A stretch of DNA of 64,000 bases, from assembly GCA_009838525.1 (NCBI GenBank), contig VXRJ01000035.1:133462-197461 (forward strand), given 5' to 3'. Positions 20,446 to 25,596 of this stretch are shown piece after piece. The position numbers were made by a program, and so were the translations under genes. Position 1 is the stretch's first letter, and each line of letters begins with the position of its first letter. Below the pieces are notes generated by a model, which did no database searches, was not told the origin of the DNA, and saw only the letters and a list, made by a program, of their open reading frames with translations. Source of the DNA: Acidobacteriota bacterium. GTDB taxonomy: Bacteria > Acidobacteriota > Vicinamibacteria > Vicinamibacterales > UBA8438.

Positions 20446-21291
20446 TCAGCCCACCAGCGGGGATTCCTGCACCCGGCGTTCGCCCGGTCCGTCGTAGGCG
20501 TGCTTCGACGGATCGATCAGGCGCATGGCCTCCTGGCGGCGCGTTTCCTCGATCGCATGAGCCACGAGGCCCGGGACGCGCGCGATGGTGAAGAGCATCG
20601 TTGCCGTCTCGGCGTCGAGTCCCAGGTCGCCCGCGACGGCGGCGATGGCGCCGTCGACGTTCAGCGAAACGGTCGGCAGTCCGCTTGCTGCCCGGCGTTC
20701 GATCAGCTCCTGCTCGATCGCTCGGGCGAGTTGCGTGTGACCGCCTTCGAGCTCCAGCTCGAACGCGAGTTGCATCAGCCGTGCCGCCCGCGGGTCGCGC
20801 ATATGTTGGCGGTGGCCGAAACCGGGCGGCGTCTGTCCGGTGGCGCTCATCTGATCGAGCAGCCGACGGGCGGCGTCGTCGTACGACACCCAGTCACCCA
20901 CCAGCGCAAGTCCGTCATCCAGGAGGCGCATGCAGCTCTCGATGCTGCCGCCACCGCCAAGCCGTGAGCCGAGGGCGAGAAGGCCGGCCGCCGCCGCCGC
21001 GCGGAGCGGCGCCCCCGTGCTCGCGACGTTTCGGGCCGCGACGGTGGCGGGCGGCGTCGCACCATGGTCAATCGTCGAGATCAGCAGCGCGTCCATTACG
21101 CGGCTGACGGTACGGTCCGGCAGCTCCCCCGTCAGGACCAGATAGATGGCGTCGCTGAACGACACCCGTCCCATCAACTCGTCGACCGGATAGCCACGCA
21201 GCAACACCTTGTTGGGTTCCACCTGCGTGATAGCGGTCGGCCAGCGCTCGGACGGCTCGGCGCGTGTCGTCGTCGAAGGGGGAGTACTCAT
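20446..21291 (-). CDS. Short citrate synthase-like protein (citryl-CoA lyase-type)
   Basis: 281 aa, much shorter than citrate synthase (about 430) and close to the length of the citrate synthase-like domain of ATP-citrate lyase. Catalytic residues are visible: His76 in STIDHGATP, His160 in PGFGHRQHMRD and Asp213 in SLNVDGAIAAV. It may cleave or form citryl-CoA or a methylcitrate-like compound; the direction cannot be told. The N-terminus ITQVEPNKVLLRGYPVDELM fits the family. It diverges from the DUF3179 gene. Confidence 0.75.
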   Translation of the reverse strand: MSTPPSTTTRAEPSERWPTAITQVEPNKVLLRGYPVDELMGRVSFSDAIYLVLTGELPDRTVSRVMDALLISTIDHGATPPATVAARNVASTGAPLRAAAAAGLLALGSRLGGGGSIESCMRLLDDGLALVGDWVSYDDAARRLLDQMSATGQTPPGFGHRQHMRDPRAARLMQLAFELELEGGHTQLARAIEQELIERRAASGLPTVSLNVDGAIAAVAGDLGLDAETATMLFTIARVPGLVAHAIEETRRQEAMRLIDPSKHAYDGPGERRVQESPLVG

Positions 21292-21365
21292 TTTCTTCGC
21301 CTCGCTTCCTGAGCCTCGCGGCAGGGGCTATGATGGCTGACAGCCGCGAGATAGGGAAGTTGAAG

Positions 21366-22904
21366 ATGCAACCGGAGCGTACATCATCGCCCGTCGGATT
21401 CCGTATGACGGTACTGCTGTTGGCGACGGCCCTCTGGCTGCTGCCGGTGGCGGCCGCCACGCCGGTGGCCGCACAGCCGCGCGCCACAGAAGGGGATCAC
21501 CCCGACATTCGTCTTTTCTTTCTGGCTCTCGACCAGGACCGTGACAAGGCCGCGGAGGCGCTCGACCAGATTGCCGAGCAGTGGCGCGACGGCTACGCGG
21601 GCATGCTCTGGGACCTTATCCGGTTCTACCCTCCGCCGCGCGATCCGGCGCCAGCGTTCTCGACGGATCCGACCGACCCCACTAATCAGACCCGCGAGTT
21701 GGAGCCGCCGCCGGTAGAGTCGCCCGGTACGCGGGTCTGGCGCGACCTGATGGGGTTCCTGGAGGACCAGACAGGCCAGCGATTCCGCGGCAGTCTCGTG
21801 CGCGCGCACCAGTGGATCTGGGCCCAGCCGTACGATCCGCACCCCGACTACCCCTTCTTCAAGGGCGTCTGGTACCGCGAGATAGACCCTGCGTTTGCCG
21901 ACTTCTTTCCTCCCGGCACGGAGACGTTGATTCGGCTCGACGAGATTGACTGGGGCGGCGTTCCGGTCAACGGCATTCCTCCGCTCGAGTACTCCGAGTA
22001 CGTCGGCGCGAACGACGATGCCGCCGACTACCTGGACGACGACGACATCGTCTTCGGCATCGCCGCCGGTGGAGAGATGCGAGCCTATCCGAAACGAATC
22101 CTGGCGTGGCACGAGATGGCGCTCGACCAGGTCGGCGGCATCGAGTTGACGATCGTCTACTGCACGCTCTGCGGTACGGTCATCCCGTACGAGAGCGTTG
22201 TCGATGGCCGGCACATCAAGTTCGGCACGAGCGGCCTGCTCTACCGGTCGAACAAGCTGATGTTCGACCATGGCACCAAGAGCCTGTGGAACACGTTCGA
22301 GGGGGTGCCGGTGGTGGGTGCGCTGGTGGGCAGCGGACTCCGGCTTACGCATCGCGCCGTAGTGACCACGACGTGGGGCGAGTGGCGGCGGATGCACCCC
22401 GGGACGACGGTGCTCACCCTCGCCACCGGCCACGAGCGGGACTATGGCGAAGGCGTGGCGTACCGCGACTATTTCTCGACGGATGCGCTGATGTTCCCCG
22501 TTCCGGACCTGGACGACCATCCGGACGGCGAACTGGACAACAAGGACGAGGTGCTGACGCTGCTGCTCGAGGATGCGGCCGGACAACGCCAGCCGCTTGC
22601 GATTTCGACGGAGTTTCTCGAGGACAACCGGCTCCACCCGGAACAGCATGCCGGTCGGCGCCTGCTGGTGGTGACGACCGGGGAGGGTGCGAACCGCGTC
22701 TTCGACCCGGGCGACAGCAACTTCGTCCGGCTCGAGGGCGACCTCGTGGTGGTGGACGCGGACGGCGGGCGATGGCAGGTGACGGAGGATGCACTGGTGC
22801 ACGCGGACAATCCGTCCCGGCGCCTCCCGCGGGTGGCGGCGCAGCGGGCGTTCTGGTTCGGCTGGCGGGCCCAGTTCCCGGAGACCCGCCTGGTGCGCGA
22901 CTAG
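21366..22904 (+). CDS. DUF3179 domain-containing secreted protein
   Basis: 512 aa with an N-terminal hydrophobic export signal (residues 15-35, ending VAAQPR). The DUF3179 core has IVYCTLCGTVIPYE, KFGTSGLLYRSNKLMFDHGT, LWNTFEGVPVVG and the Cys pair CTLC. The biochemical role of the family is unknown; the Cys pair could bind a metal or be redox-active (inference). The ATG at 21366 has AGGGAAG upstream. Two inverted repeats of family A follow the gene. Confidence 0.85.
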   Translation: MQPERTSSPVGFRMTVLLLATALWLLPVAAATPVAAQPRATEGDHPDIRLFFLALDQDRDKAAEALDQIAEQWRDGYAGMLWDLIRFYPPPRDPAPAFSTDPTDPTNQTRELEPPPVESPGTRVWRDLMGFLEDQTGQRFRGSLVRAHQWIWAQPYDPHPDYPFFKGVWYREIDPAFADFFPPGTETLIRLDEIDWGGVPVNGIPPLEYSEYVGANDDAADYLDDDDIVFGIAAGGEMRAYPKRILAWHEMALDQVGGIELTIVYCTLCGTVIPYESVVDGRHIKFGTSGLLYRSNKLMFDHGTKSLWNTFEGVPVVGALVGSGLRLTHRAVVTTTWGEWRRMHPGTTVLTLATGHERDYGEGVAYRDYFSTDALMFPVPDLDDHPDGELDNKDEVLTLLLEDAAGQRQPLAISTEFLEDNRLHPEQHAGRRLLVVTTGEGANRVFDPGDSNFVRLEGDLVVVDADGGRWQVTEDALVHADNPSRRLPRVAAQRAFWFGWRAQFPETRLVRD

Positions 22905-22977: not shown

Positions 22978-23088
22978 GCACCGTAGTGAAGCCGCTAGGC
23001 GAATCGGGTTCGGATCGGCTAGGCTAGTGCCTTCCGAGCGGCGGTATCTTGTAGTGGCGGTGACGGGAGACTCGAAGGAGCAGGCACG

Positions 23089-23619
23089 ATGAAGCTACTC
23101 TGGACCCTGACTCTGGCGGCGGCGGTTCTTGCGCTCGGCGCGACCGGCGCCCAGGCGCAAGATCTGCAGGTGGGTGACGACGCGCCCGCCTTCGACCTGC
23201 CGGGGAGCGACGGAAATACCCACAGCCTCGGGCAGTACGCCGGACGCACCGTCGTGCTGGCGTGGTTCCCGAAGGCCTTCACCGGTGGTTGAACGGCCGA
23301 ATGCAAGTCGCTGCGTGAGTCCAGCGACCAACTTCAGCAGTTCGATCTGGCGTACTTCATGGTGAGCGTTGACGATGCGCAGACGAACCGGGAGTTCGCC
23401 GAATCGCTCGGGGCCGATTTCCCGATCCTGAGCGATCCCGGCAAGGGCGTGGCCCGGGCCTACGGCGTCGTTAACGCCGAGCGGGAGTTGCCGTTCCGGT
23501 GGACATACATCATCGGCGCGGACGGCAAGATCCTCTCGATCGACAAGGACGTGACCCCCAACACGGCGGGTGCGGATCTCGTGGCGGACTTGACGCGGCT
23601 GGACGTTCCGCGTCAGTAG
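23089..23619 (+). CDS. Peroxiredoxin, probable selenoprotein (TGA = Sec68)
   Basis: 176 aa if the TGA at 23290-23292 is read as selenocysteine. A signal peptide (ending QAQ) precedes a thioredoxin-fold AhpC/TSA domain: VGDDAPAFDLPGSDG, then WFPKAFTGG-U-TAECKSLRE, VSVDDAQTNREFAESLGADF, YIIGADGKILSIDK. Reading through the TGA keeps frame and homology on both sides. The Sec takes the place of the peroxidatic Cys of BCP-type peroxiredoxins, with Cys72 as possible resolving residue. A 7-bp hairpin stands 14 bases after the TGA. It would reduce peroxides in the periplasm. No selA, selB, selC or selD is in this window. Confidence 0.85.
23307..23328 (+). promoter_or_regulatory. Candidate bacterial SECIS hairpin
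   Basis: Stem GTCGCTG (23307-23313) pairs perfectly with CAGCGAC (23322-23328) around an 8-base loop CGTGAGTC. The loop starts 21 bases after the TGA and has G in its second position, as expected for SelB-binding hairpins within coding sequence. Confidence 0.65.
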
Positions 23620-23758: not shown

Positions 23759-23980
23759 TCAGTCGGATGACCGGGAGGAAGAAGACGATGACGCTTCCGA
23801 GGACTGCGCCTTCTCGTCGATGCGAACCTCTTCCTTGAAGCCGCGAATCGCTTGACCGAGCCCCTTGCCGAGGCCTGACAGCCGCTTCGCACCGAAGATG
23901 AGGATCACGATGGCGAGAATGACGATCAGTTCCAACGGACCGACCGGCCCAAGCAGCGCGAGCATCAGTCCAGAGTGCAT
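23759..23980 (-). CDS. tatA: Sec-independent protein translocase subunit TatA/TatB-like
   Basis: 73 aa. A short N-terminal transmembrane helix (LELIVILAIVILIFGAKRL) with the conserved FG-hinge is followed by an amphipathic helix (GLGKGLGQAIRGFKEEV) and an acidic, Ser-rich tail. Size and motif fit TatA/E better than TatB. It would form the pore of the twin-arginine export system. A GAGAGG ribosome site precedes the ATG. Confidence 0.9.
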   Translation of the reverse strand: MHSGLMLALLGPVGPLELIVILAIVILIFGAKRLSGLGKGLGQAIRGFKEEVRIDEKAQSSEASSSSSSRSSD

Positions 23981-24075: not shown

Positions 24076-25596
24076 ATGACCGACAAGACCACAGCCCGCA
24101 ACCCGGACGTGCAGGCGACCGAAGCCGCGCAGGCCCGTTTTGACGCGGCCCGGCGGCGGGTCGGGCTGATCCTCGGTCCCGCGCTCTTCGTGCTGTTGCT
24201 CCTAGCGCCGCTCGAGGCGCTGACGCCGGAGGGACAGCGTCTGGCTGCCGTCACGGCGCTGGTTGTCGTTTTCTGGACCACCGAGGCGCTGCCGCTTGCG
24301 GTTACCGCACTGCTCGGACCGGTGCTCGCGGTCATTCTGCGCGTGGCGCCGGTCGGCACCGTACTGGCGCCATTCGCCCACCCGCTCATCTTCCTCTTCA
24401 TCGGAAGCTTCATCCTGGCCCAGGCGCTGTTCGTTCACCGCGTGAACGAGCGGATCGCGTACGCCGTGCTGTCGCTCCGCATGATCGGCGCCCGGCCGAC
24501 GCGAATACTGATCGCGTATGGCGCCCTCGCCGCGTTCCTGTCCGCCTGGATGAGCAATACCGCGACGACCGCGATGCTGGTACCCATCGGCATCTCGCTC
24601 GTCGTCTTCATGGAGTCGGCCGGCGACCTTCCGAAGCGTTACGCAACCGCGCTGATGCTGATGACGGCGTACGGCTGCTCGATTGGCGGCATGGCGACCC
24701 CGGTCGGGACGCCGCCCAACATCATTGCGATTGCCGCGATTCAGGAACAGCTCGGCGTCCGGATCTCGTTCGTCGAGTGGATGCTCTTTGCCGTGCCGAT
24801 CACGGTCGTGTTCATGGCCATCGTCTTCGTCTATCTCAATTGGGCGGGACGGACCGGCATCCGCGAGATCCCCGGCGCGGAGAAGATCATCGCGGAGCGC
24901 CGGGCGGCGCTCGGGCCCTGGAAGCCGGGCGAGCGGAACGCCATCATCGCCTTCGGGGTTACGGTCTCGCTCTGGGTCGGTCCCGGTCTCCTGCCGCTTG
25001 TGCTGGGCCGTGAACACCCGTTTGCCGTCGCCGTGCTCGGAAGCATGCCGGAGGCGGTCGCCGCGCTGACCGGCGCCATCCTGCTGTTTCTGTTGCCGAT
25101 CAGCCGGACCGAGCGAAGCACGCTCACGTGGAAGCAGGCGGCGCAGATCGACTGGGGCACCATTCTCCTGTTCGGCGGCGGGCTCTCGCTCGGTACGCTG
25201 TCGGGCGCGACAGGCCTGGCGCAGGTTGTGGGCGAGGGAATCACGGGCCTCGTTCCTTCCAACGACGTCGTACCGATCACCATCGCCGCGACGCTCTTCA
25301 CGGTAGTGCTTTCGAACACGATGTCGAACACCGCCGCCGCGAACATTGCCGTGCCGATTGTCATCGCCATCGCGGTCGCGGCCGGCGTAGACCCGATTCC
25401 GCCGGCCATCGCCGCCGCCCTCGGCGCGTCGGTCGCGGTCGTCCTCCCGGTCTCGACGCCGCCGAACGCCATCGTCTATGCCTCTGGCCGCATACCGATC
25501 ACCAAGATGATCCAGTACGGCCTCCTGATGGGCTTCCTCGCCATTGTGCTCGTTCCCATCGTCACGCTCGCGGTCCTGTCTGTCGTTCGCGGCTAG
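24076..25596 (+). CDS. SLC13/DASS-family sodium:anion symporter
   Basis: 506 aa with about 11-12 hydrophobic segments. The two inverted SNT motifs of the divalent anion:Na+ symporter family are present: SNTATTAMLVPIGIS and LSNTMSNTAAANIAVP, each followed by a proline hairpin (TPVGTPPNII and VSTPPNAIVYA). The substrate would be a di- or tricarboxylate, sulfate or phosphate; the sequence does not decide. The N-terminus is a cytoplasmic charged stretch. Confidence 0.9.
   Translation: MTDKTTARNPDVQATEAAQARFDAARRRVGLILGPALFVLLLLAPLEALTPEGQRLAAVTALVVVFWTTEALPLAVTALLGPVLAVILRVAPVGTVLAPFAHPLIFLFIGSFILAQALFVHRVNERIAYAVLSLRMIGARPTRILIAYGALAAFLSAWMSNTATTAMLVPIGISLVVFMESAGDLPKRYATALMLMTAYGCSIGGMATPVGTPPNIIAIAAIQEQLGVRISFVEWMLFAVPITVVFMAIVFVYLNWAGRTGIREIPGAEKIIAERRAALGPWKPGERNAIIAFGVTVSLWVGPGLLPLVLGREHPFAVAVLGSMPEAVAALTGAILLFLLPISRTERSTLTWKQAAQIDWGTILLFGGGLSLGTLSGATGLAQVVGEGITGLVPSNDVVPITIAATLFTVVLSNTMSNTAAANIAVPIVIAIAVAAGVDPIPPAIAAALGASVAVVLPVSTPPNAIVYASGRIPITKMIQYGLLMGFLAIVLVPIVTLAVLSVVRG

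Follow-up and report, generated by a model that had tools for sequence, protein, structure and literature searches.

An in-frame TGA at the peroxidatic position of a predicted exported selenocysteine peroxiredoxin from Acidobacteriota

Selenocysteine (Sec) is known from bacterial peroxiredoxins, and here we describe a gene from an Acidobacteriota genome that almost certainly encodes an exported member of this kind. On the sequence evidence, the product would be a BCP/PrxQ-AhpE-like peroxiredoxin with Sec as its peroxidatic residue, the UGA being decoded via SelB and a hairpin. The gene lies at 23089-23619 on the plus strand of the window, by which we mean the whole stretch of 64,000 nucleotides that was analysed, and was assigned from its frame, the domain match, orthologues and an AlphaFold2 model. 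The sole internal stop of the frame is the TGA of codon 68 (23290-23292, plus strand), which is conserved across orthologues and relatives; the terminal stop is TAG, and the read-through product is 176 residues long and would carry Sec as residue 68. A Shine-Dalgarno-like GAAGGAG (23074-23080, plus strand), read from the sequence, stands 8 nt 5' of the ATG. An earlier note had claimed that the protein frame runs across the TGA, and indeed the flanks that it quoted are present (AWFPKAFTGG-U-TAECKSLRES) and both belong to one AhpC-TSA domain (PF00578, residues 28-148, E 1e-31, 109.8 bits against a cut-off of 26). It had also expected standard gene calling to split the gene. This is what happens in the open reading frame listing, where only an 86-aa 3' piece starting at 23359 passes the 80-aa cut-off, and automatic annotation will cut the Sec peroxiredoxin gene into two fragments. 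The acidobacterial setting that was guessed at is borne out by the nearest named relatives, which are Vicinamibacteria/Vicinamibacterales MAGs.

The active-site segment P61-K-A-F-T65-G-G-U68-T-A-E-C72 (23269-23304, plus strand) was delimited by its invariance among aligned relatives. It holds the complete motif P61-xxx-T65-xx-U68, and the conserved peroxiredoxin active-site Arg, R137, follows with its neighbours (RWTY) at 23497-23508 (plus strand). In 57 aligned relatives P61, T65, C/U68, C72, R137 and T139 are invariant, and the invariance of P61, T65, U/C68 and R137 therefore identifies a peroxiredoxin active site. The TGA was proposed to occupy the place of the peroxidatic Cys; the complete PxxxTxxU motif and the Cys found there in TGA-less homologues agree with this. 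The spacing U68-x3-C72 was likewise read correctly, residue 72 being the next Cys, and the protein has no Sec or Cys besides U68 and C72. The AlphaFold2 model, with Sec modelled as Cys, has a mean pLDDT of 91 and a peroxiredoxin fold. Its structural matches are BCP, AhpE and PrxQ, with Bcp1 (3drn) as the best PDB match, and it places U68 and C72 in the first part of helix 66-77. Because Cys72 is invariant we infer that it is the resolving residue. Peroxidase activity is predicted for the Sec peroxiredoxin as well. It is improbable that the protein is instead a Sec-containing thiol:disulfide oxidoreductase: the predicted export would fit such a role, as in many thioredoxin-fold disulfide exchangers, and UxxC proteins that are exported and contain a DsbD-N-like domain are encoded in the source genome, but the site here is PxxxTxxU with an invariant Arg137 and not UxxC, and the closest structures are BCP and AhpE peroxiredoxins.

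Sec-containing peroxiredoxins (TxxU) form a bacterial selenoprotein family that is known and has experimental support (PMC13188914, PMC9312934, PMC2398784), with 91 cases in PMC5029168 and 253 marine cases in PMC2398784, and Sec proteins of Acidobacteria were counted in 2006 (PMC1794560). The type is thus not new, as the earlier note had said with reference to PrxU; TxxU peroxiredoxins have long been catalogued among bacterial selenoproteins. With PrxU of Eubacterium acidaminophilum the window protein has in common the AhpC-TSA domain, the TxxU/PxxxTxxU motif and Sec at the peroxidatic position, whereas the conserved signal peptide and the Cys at U+4 set it apart. The NCBIfam PrxU model NF040737 has a cut-off of 270 bits and scores the protein at 50.6 bits, which is therefore not a PrxU equivalog. 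PRK09437 is the best NCBIfam match, with 72.2 bits against an equivalog cut-off of 140. The BCP/PrxQ proteins (Sulfolobus Bcp1, 3drn; PRK09437) share the fold and the active-site positions. BCP is a Cys-based enzyme with a C-x4-C arrangement and is not known to carry a signal peptide. Its two-Cys arrangement has the resolving Cys at CP+5, whereas the invariant Cys72 lies at +4. The BCP-type reading of the gene hence stands for the peroxidatic position but not for the spacing, which is x3 here as against x4 in BCP, including the separate ordinary Cys BCP (TPGCTTEAC) that the source genome holds near selD. AhpE of Mycobacterium tuberculosis, a cytoplasmic 1-Cys enzyme, is 33% identical in the structural alignment and has the FTGxC motif in common with the window protein but, unlike it, is without Sec. 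The Prx-like UxxC/UGC selenoproteins of marine metagenomes also combine an AhpC-TSA domain with Sec; in contrast to the window protein, they carry it within a UxxC disulfide-exchange motif, and the source genome encodes two proteins of that sort at other loci. In the open-access literature we found no description of an exported Sec peroxiredoxin or an exported U-x3-C subfamily, and no paper on the acidobacterial selenoproteome in particular, an absence that is weak evidence because the search covered open-access papers only.

The 28 genomes of the source family, own genome included, yielded 25 orthologues, and all 25 have TGA at the same codon. Those from other family genomes are 62-73% identical to the window protein, and the three genomes in which no orthologue was found are incomplete MAGs (83-89%). 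Among 119 distinct close relatives, a count that excludes lower-scoring paralogues (L041, L042, L044, L045 and L047, Cys proteins of other kinds), site 68 is TGA in 98 and Cys (TGC/TGT) in 21; where close homologues have a sense codon at the site, it always specifies Cys. Orthologues differ mostly at third codon positions, both upstream and downstream of the TGA, and the region after the TGA is therefore translated. When species genomes of bacteria and archaea were scanned, 80 loci of 48-76% identity were obtained, mainly from Acidobacteriota with Vicinamibacterales nearest, and further from Planctomycetota, Verrucomicrobiota, some Pseudomonadota and two labelled Acidimicrobiia; a plasmid collection contained only distant relatives (<60% identity), and the one of these that was inspected bore no annotation. 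As judged from these sequences, the predicted exported Sec peroxiredoxin subfamily is widespread in Acidobacteriota. The maximum-likelihood tree requires at least six Sec/Cys changes, and ten acidobacterial Cys proteins form a well supported clade amid Sec lineages. Since the backbone of the tree is weak, we assign no direction to these changes. A more distant group of about 41% identity with one in-frame TGA was seen in another acidobacterial family (G107, G124, G133 and others).

Family searches located the Sec genes of the source genome, a draft of 4.29 Mb in 38 contigs that is 96.85% complete. All four genes to be expected of a Sec-decoding organism, selA, selB, selC and selD, are present: the tRNA-Sec scores 60.6 bits, over the cut-off, and ARAGORN reports a tRNA-SeC with anticodon tca (UCA), while selA reaches 540.7 bits, selB 304 bits joined, in a 745-aa ORF, and selD 308.5 bits. 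On L134 (contig C27; genes at 527-1000 and 1088-2296, both minus strand) selD adjoins the ordinary Cys BCP gene, which reads TPGCTTEACEF. For a phylum sample of 297 genomes the TGA form was counted as best match at E <1e-39, and the genome counts were made by hand from the match listings. All 37 TGA-form genomes have selA or selB (selA in 34, selB in the remaining three), and of the 10 genomes with the Cys form as their only best match 6 are without both selA and selB. In this sample the TGA form and the Sec machinery thus co-occur (Fisher P 2e-5). The three TGA-bearing genomes without apparent selA were considered as counter-examples and rejected, as all three have selB. In one of them, G165, selA is split over two contigs. 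The other two, G120 and G070, are near-complete and have selB and the TGA peroxiredoxin with no selA match; their assemblies may have a gap at this point, or they may use another Sec synthase.

A bSECIS-like hairpin (23307-23328, plus strand) was recognised by folding, by covariation in relatives and by the bSECIS model. Its 7-bp stem (23307-23313 paired with 23322-23328) carries an 8-nt apical loop, CGUGAGUC (23314-23321), that starts 21 nt after the TGA, and its energy is -11.0 kcal/mol. The consensus bSECIS has a loop of 3-9 nt, a stem of 4-16 bp, an MFE <= -7.5, a G within the first two loop positions and a loop 16-37 nt after the UGA (PMC13188914). The window hairpin agrees with every one of these constraints, with G second in the loop and then U. 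Taken singly it is unremarkable against dinucleotide shuffles (z -0.54), and about 4% of synonymous recodings are as stable. All seven stem pairs are kept in 79 of 90 distinct TGA sequences versus 1 of 21 Cys sequences, the mean local energy is -10.4 versus -5.6 kcal/mol (P 1e-8), and the loop codon CGT occurs in 82 of 90 versus 1 of 21. In the larger group of relatives the stem covaries, with 17 cells changed on both sides and 0 of 500 shuffles as high. Sliding the helix as a control destroyed the covariation, and compensatory stem changes in this group also exceed 1000 codon-preserving permutations. The clade of the window itself has the 3' arm shifted by three nucleotides and a nearly invariant stem, so that no covariation signal arises there. 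An Rfam search of the window returned two tRNAs only and no SECIS family. Across relatives, the sequence comparison makes the hairpin a convincing bSECIS candidate.

Reading of the TGA as another amino acid, through a reassigned code (e.g. Trp) or leaky near-cognate read-through, is very unlikely. Homologues replace the TGA by Cys and never by Trp, and long neighbouring genes show no interruption when translated with table 11. The source genome encodes the full Sec machinery, which goes together with the TGA form in the phylum sample, and the bSECIS-like hairpin lies 3' of the TGA; we rejected reassignment of the genetic code on the Cys at the TGA site and the presence of the machinery. That the TGA is a Cys codon (TGC/TGT) mutated in a pseudogene or by a sequencing or assembly error might be suggested by the single base that separates these codons and by the draft state of the genome, but it is rejected as next to impossible by the conservation of the TGA in 25/25 family orthologues and 98/119 relatives, which span several phyla and come from many separate assemblies, and by purifying selection that persists 3' of the TGA.

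Sec insertion is inferred because the recoding signals are conserved and the whole machinery is present. SelB with Sec-tRNA(UCA) would bind the hairpin just 3' of the UGA, and Sec would be put in at position 68 in place of termination. An N-terminal signal peptide of the Sec type (about residues 1-23, 23089-23157, plus strand) without a lipobox is predicted from a hydrophobic core and an AxA site. The earlier note had postulated an export signal, and in support of it 82 of 88 distinct relatives likewise begin with a hydrophobic stretch, as judged by a simple hydrophobicity measure and with the relatives' start codons chosen by distance. The first 20 residues have low pLDDT in the AlphaFold2 model. 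The protein would thus leave the cytoplasm via the Sec pathway and lose its signal peptide by cleavage at the predicted AQA/QD site. Once in the periplasm, Sec68 would be activated by Thr65 and Arg137 and may reduce H2O2 or organic peroxides. This would leave a selenenic acid, from which a selenenylsulfide between Sec68 and Cys72 could arise inside the first active-site helix. The DsbD of the source genome, which has one DsbD_TM protein, might feed a thioredoxin-like protein of the periplasm, and this protein might then re-reduce the selenenylsulfide.

The gene is preceded by one for a DUF3179 protein (window 21264-22904) and followed by those for a TatA/E-type protein (window 23759-23980, minus strand) and a sodium:sulfate-type symporter (window 24076-25596). 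The DUF3179 and symporter genes lie near the Sec peroxiredoxin gene in close relatives only and therefore indicate no functional partner. Elsewhere in the source genome we noted two further likely selenoproteins (L130:484-1566, contig C33; L132:575-2056, contig C32). Each is an exported protein of the AhpC-TSA type that contains SADWUPYC (UxxC) and, towards its C-terminus, a DsbD_N-like region, and relatives interrupted by a TGA occur across the source family. At L131:271-1590 (contig C18) a further frame, which resembles peroxiredoxin/thioredoxin, contains an in-frame TGA (HRHLRULACRRHLLQLQ).

As a tentative wider reading, which we put forward as possible and somewhat short of an even chance, the protein may represent a distinct, undescribed exported peroxiredoxin subfamily with a Sec68-x3-Cys72 pair that is old in Acidobacteriota and common to Acidobacteriota, Planctomycetota and Verrucomicrobiota. 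It might form part of a selenium-based periplasmic peroxide defence, with the exported UxxC/DsbD-N-like selenoproteins as partners. The findings indicate that selenium would serve many uncultured Acidobacteriota in an antioxidant enzyme that is exported. The subfamily contains closely related Sec and Cys forms, some of them in genomes without Sec machinery, and these provide a natural comparison series for the question of what is gained from selenium in a peroxidase outside the cytoplasm.
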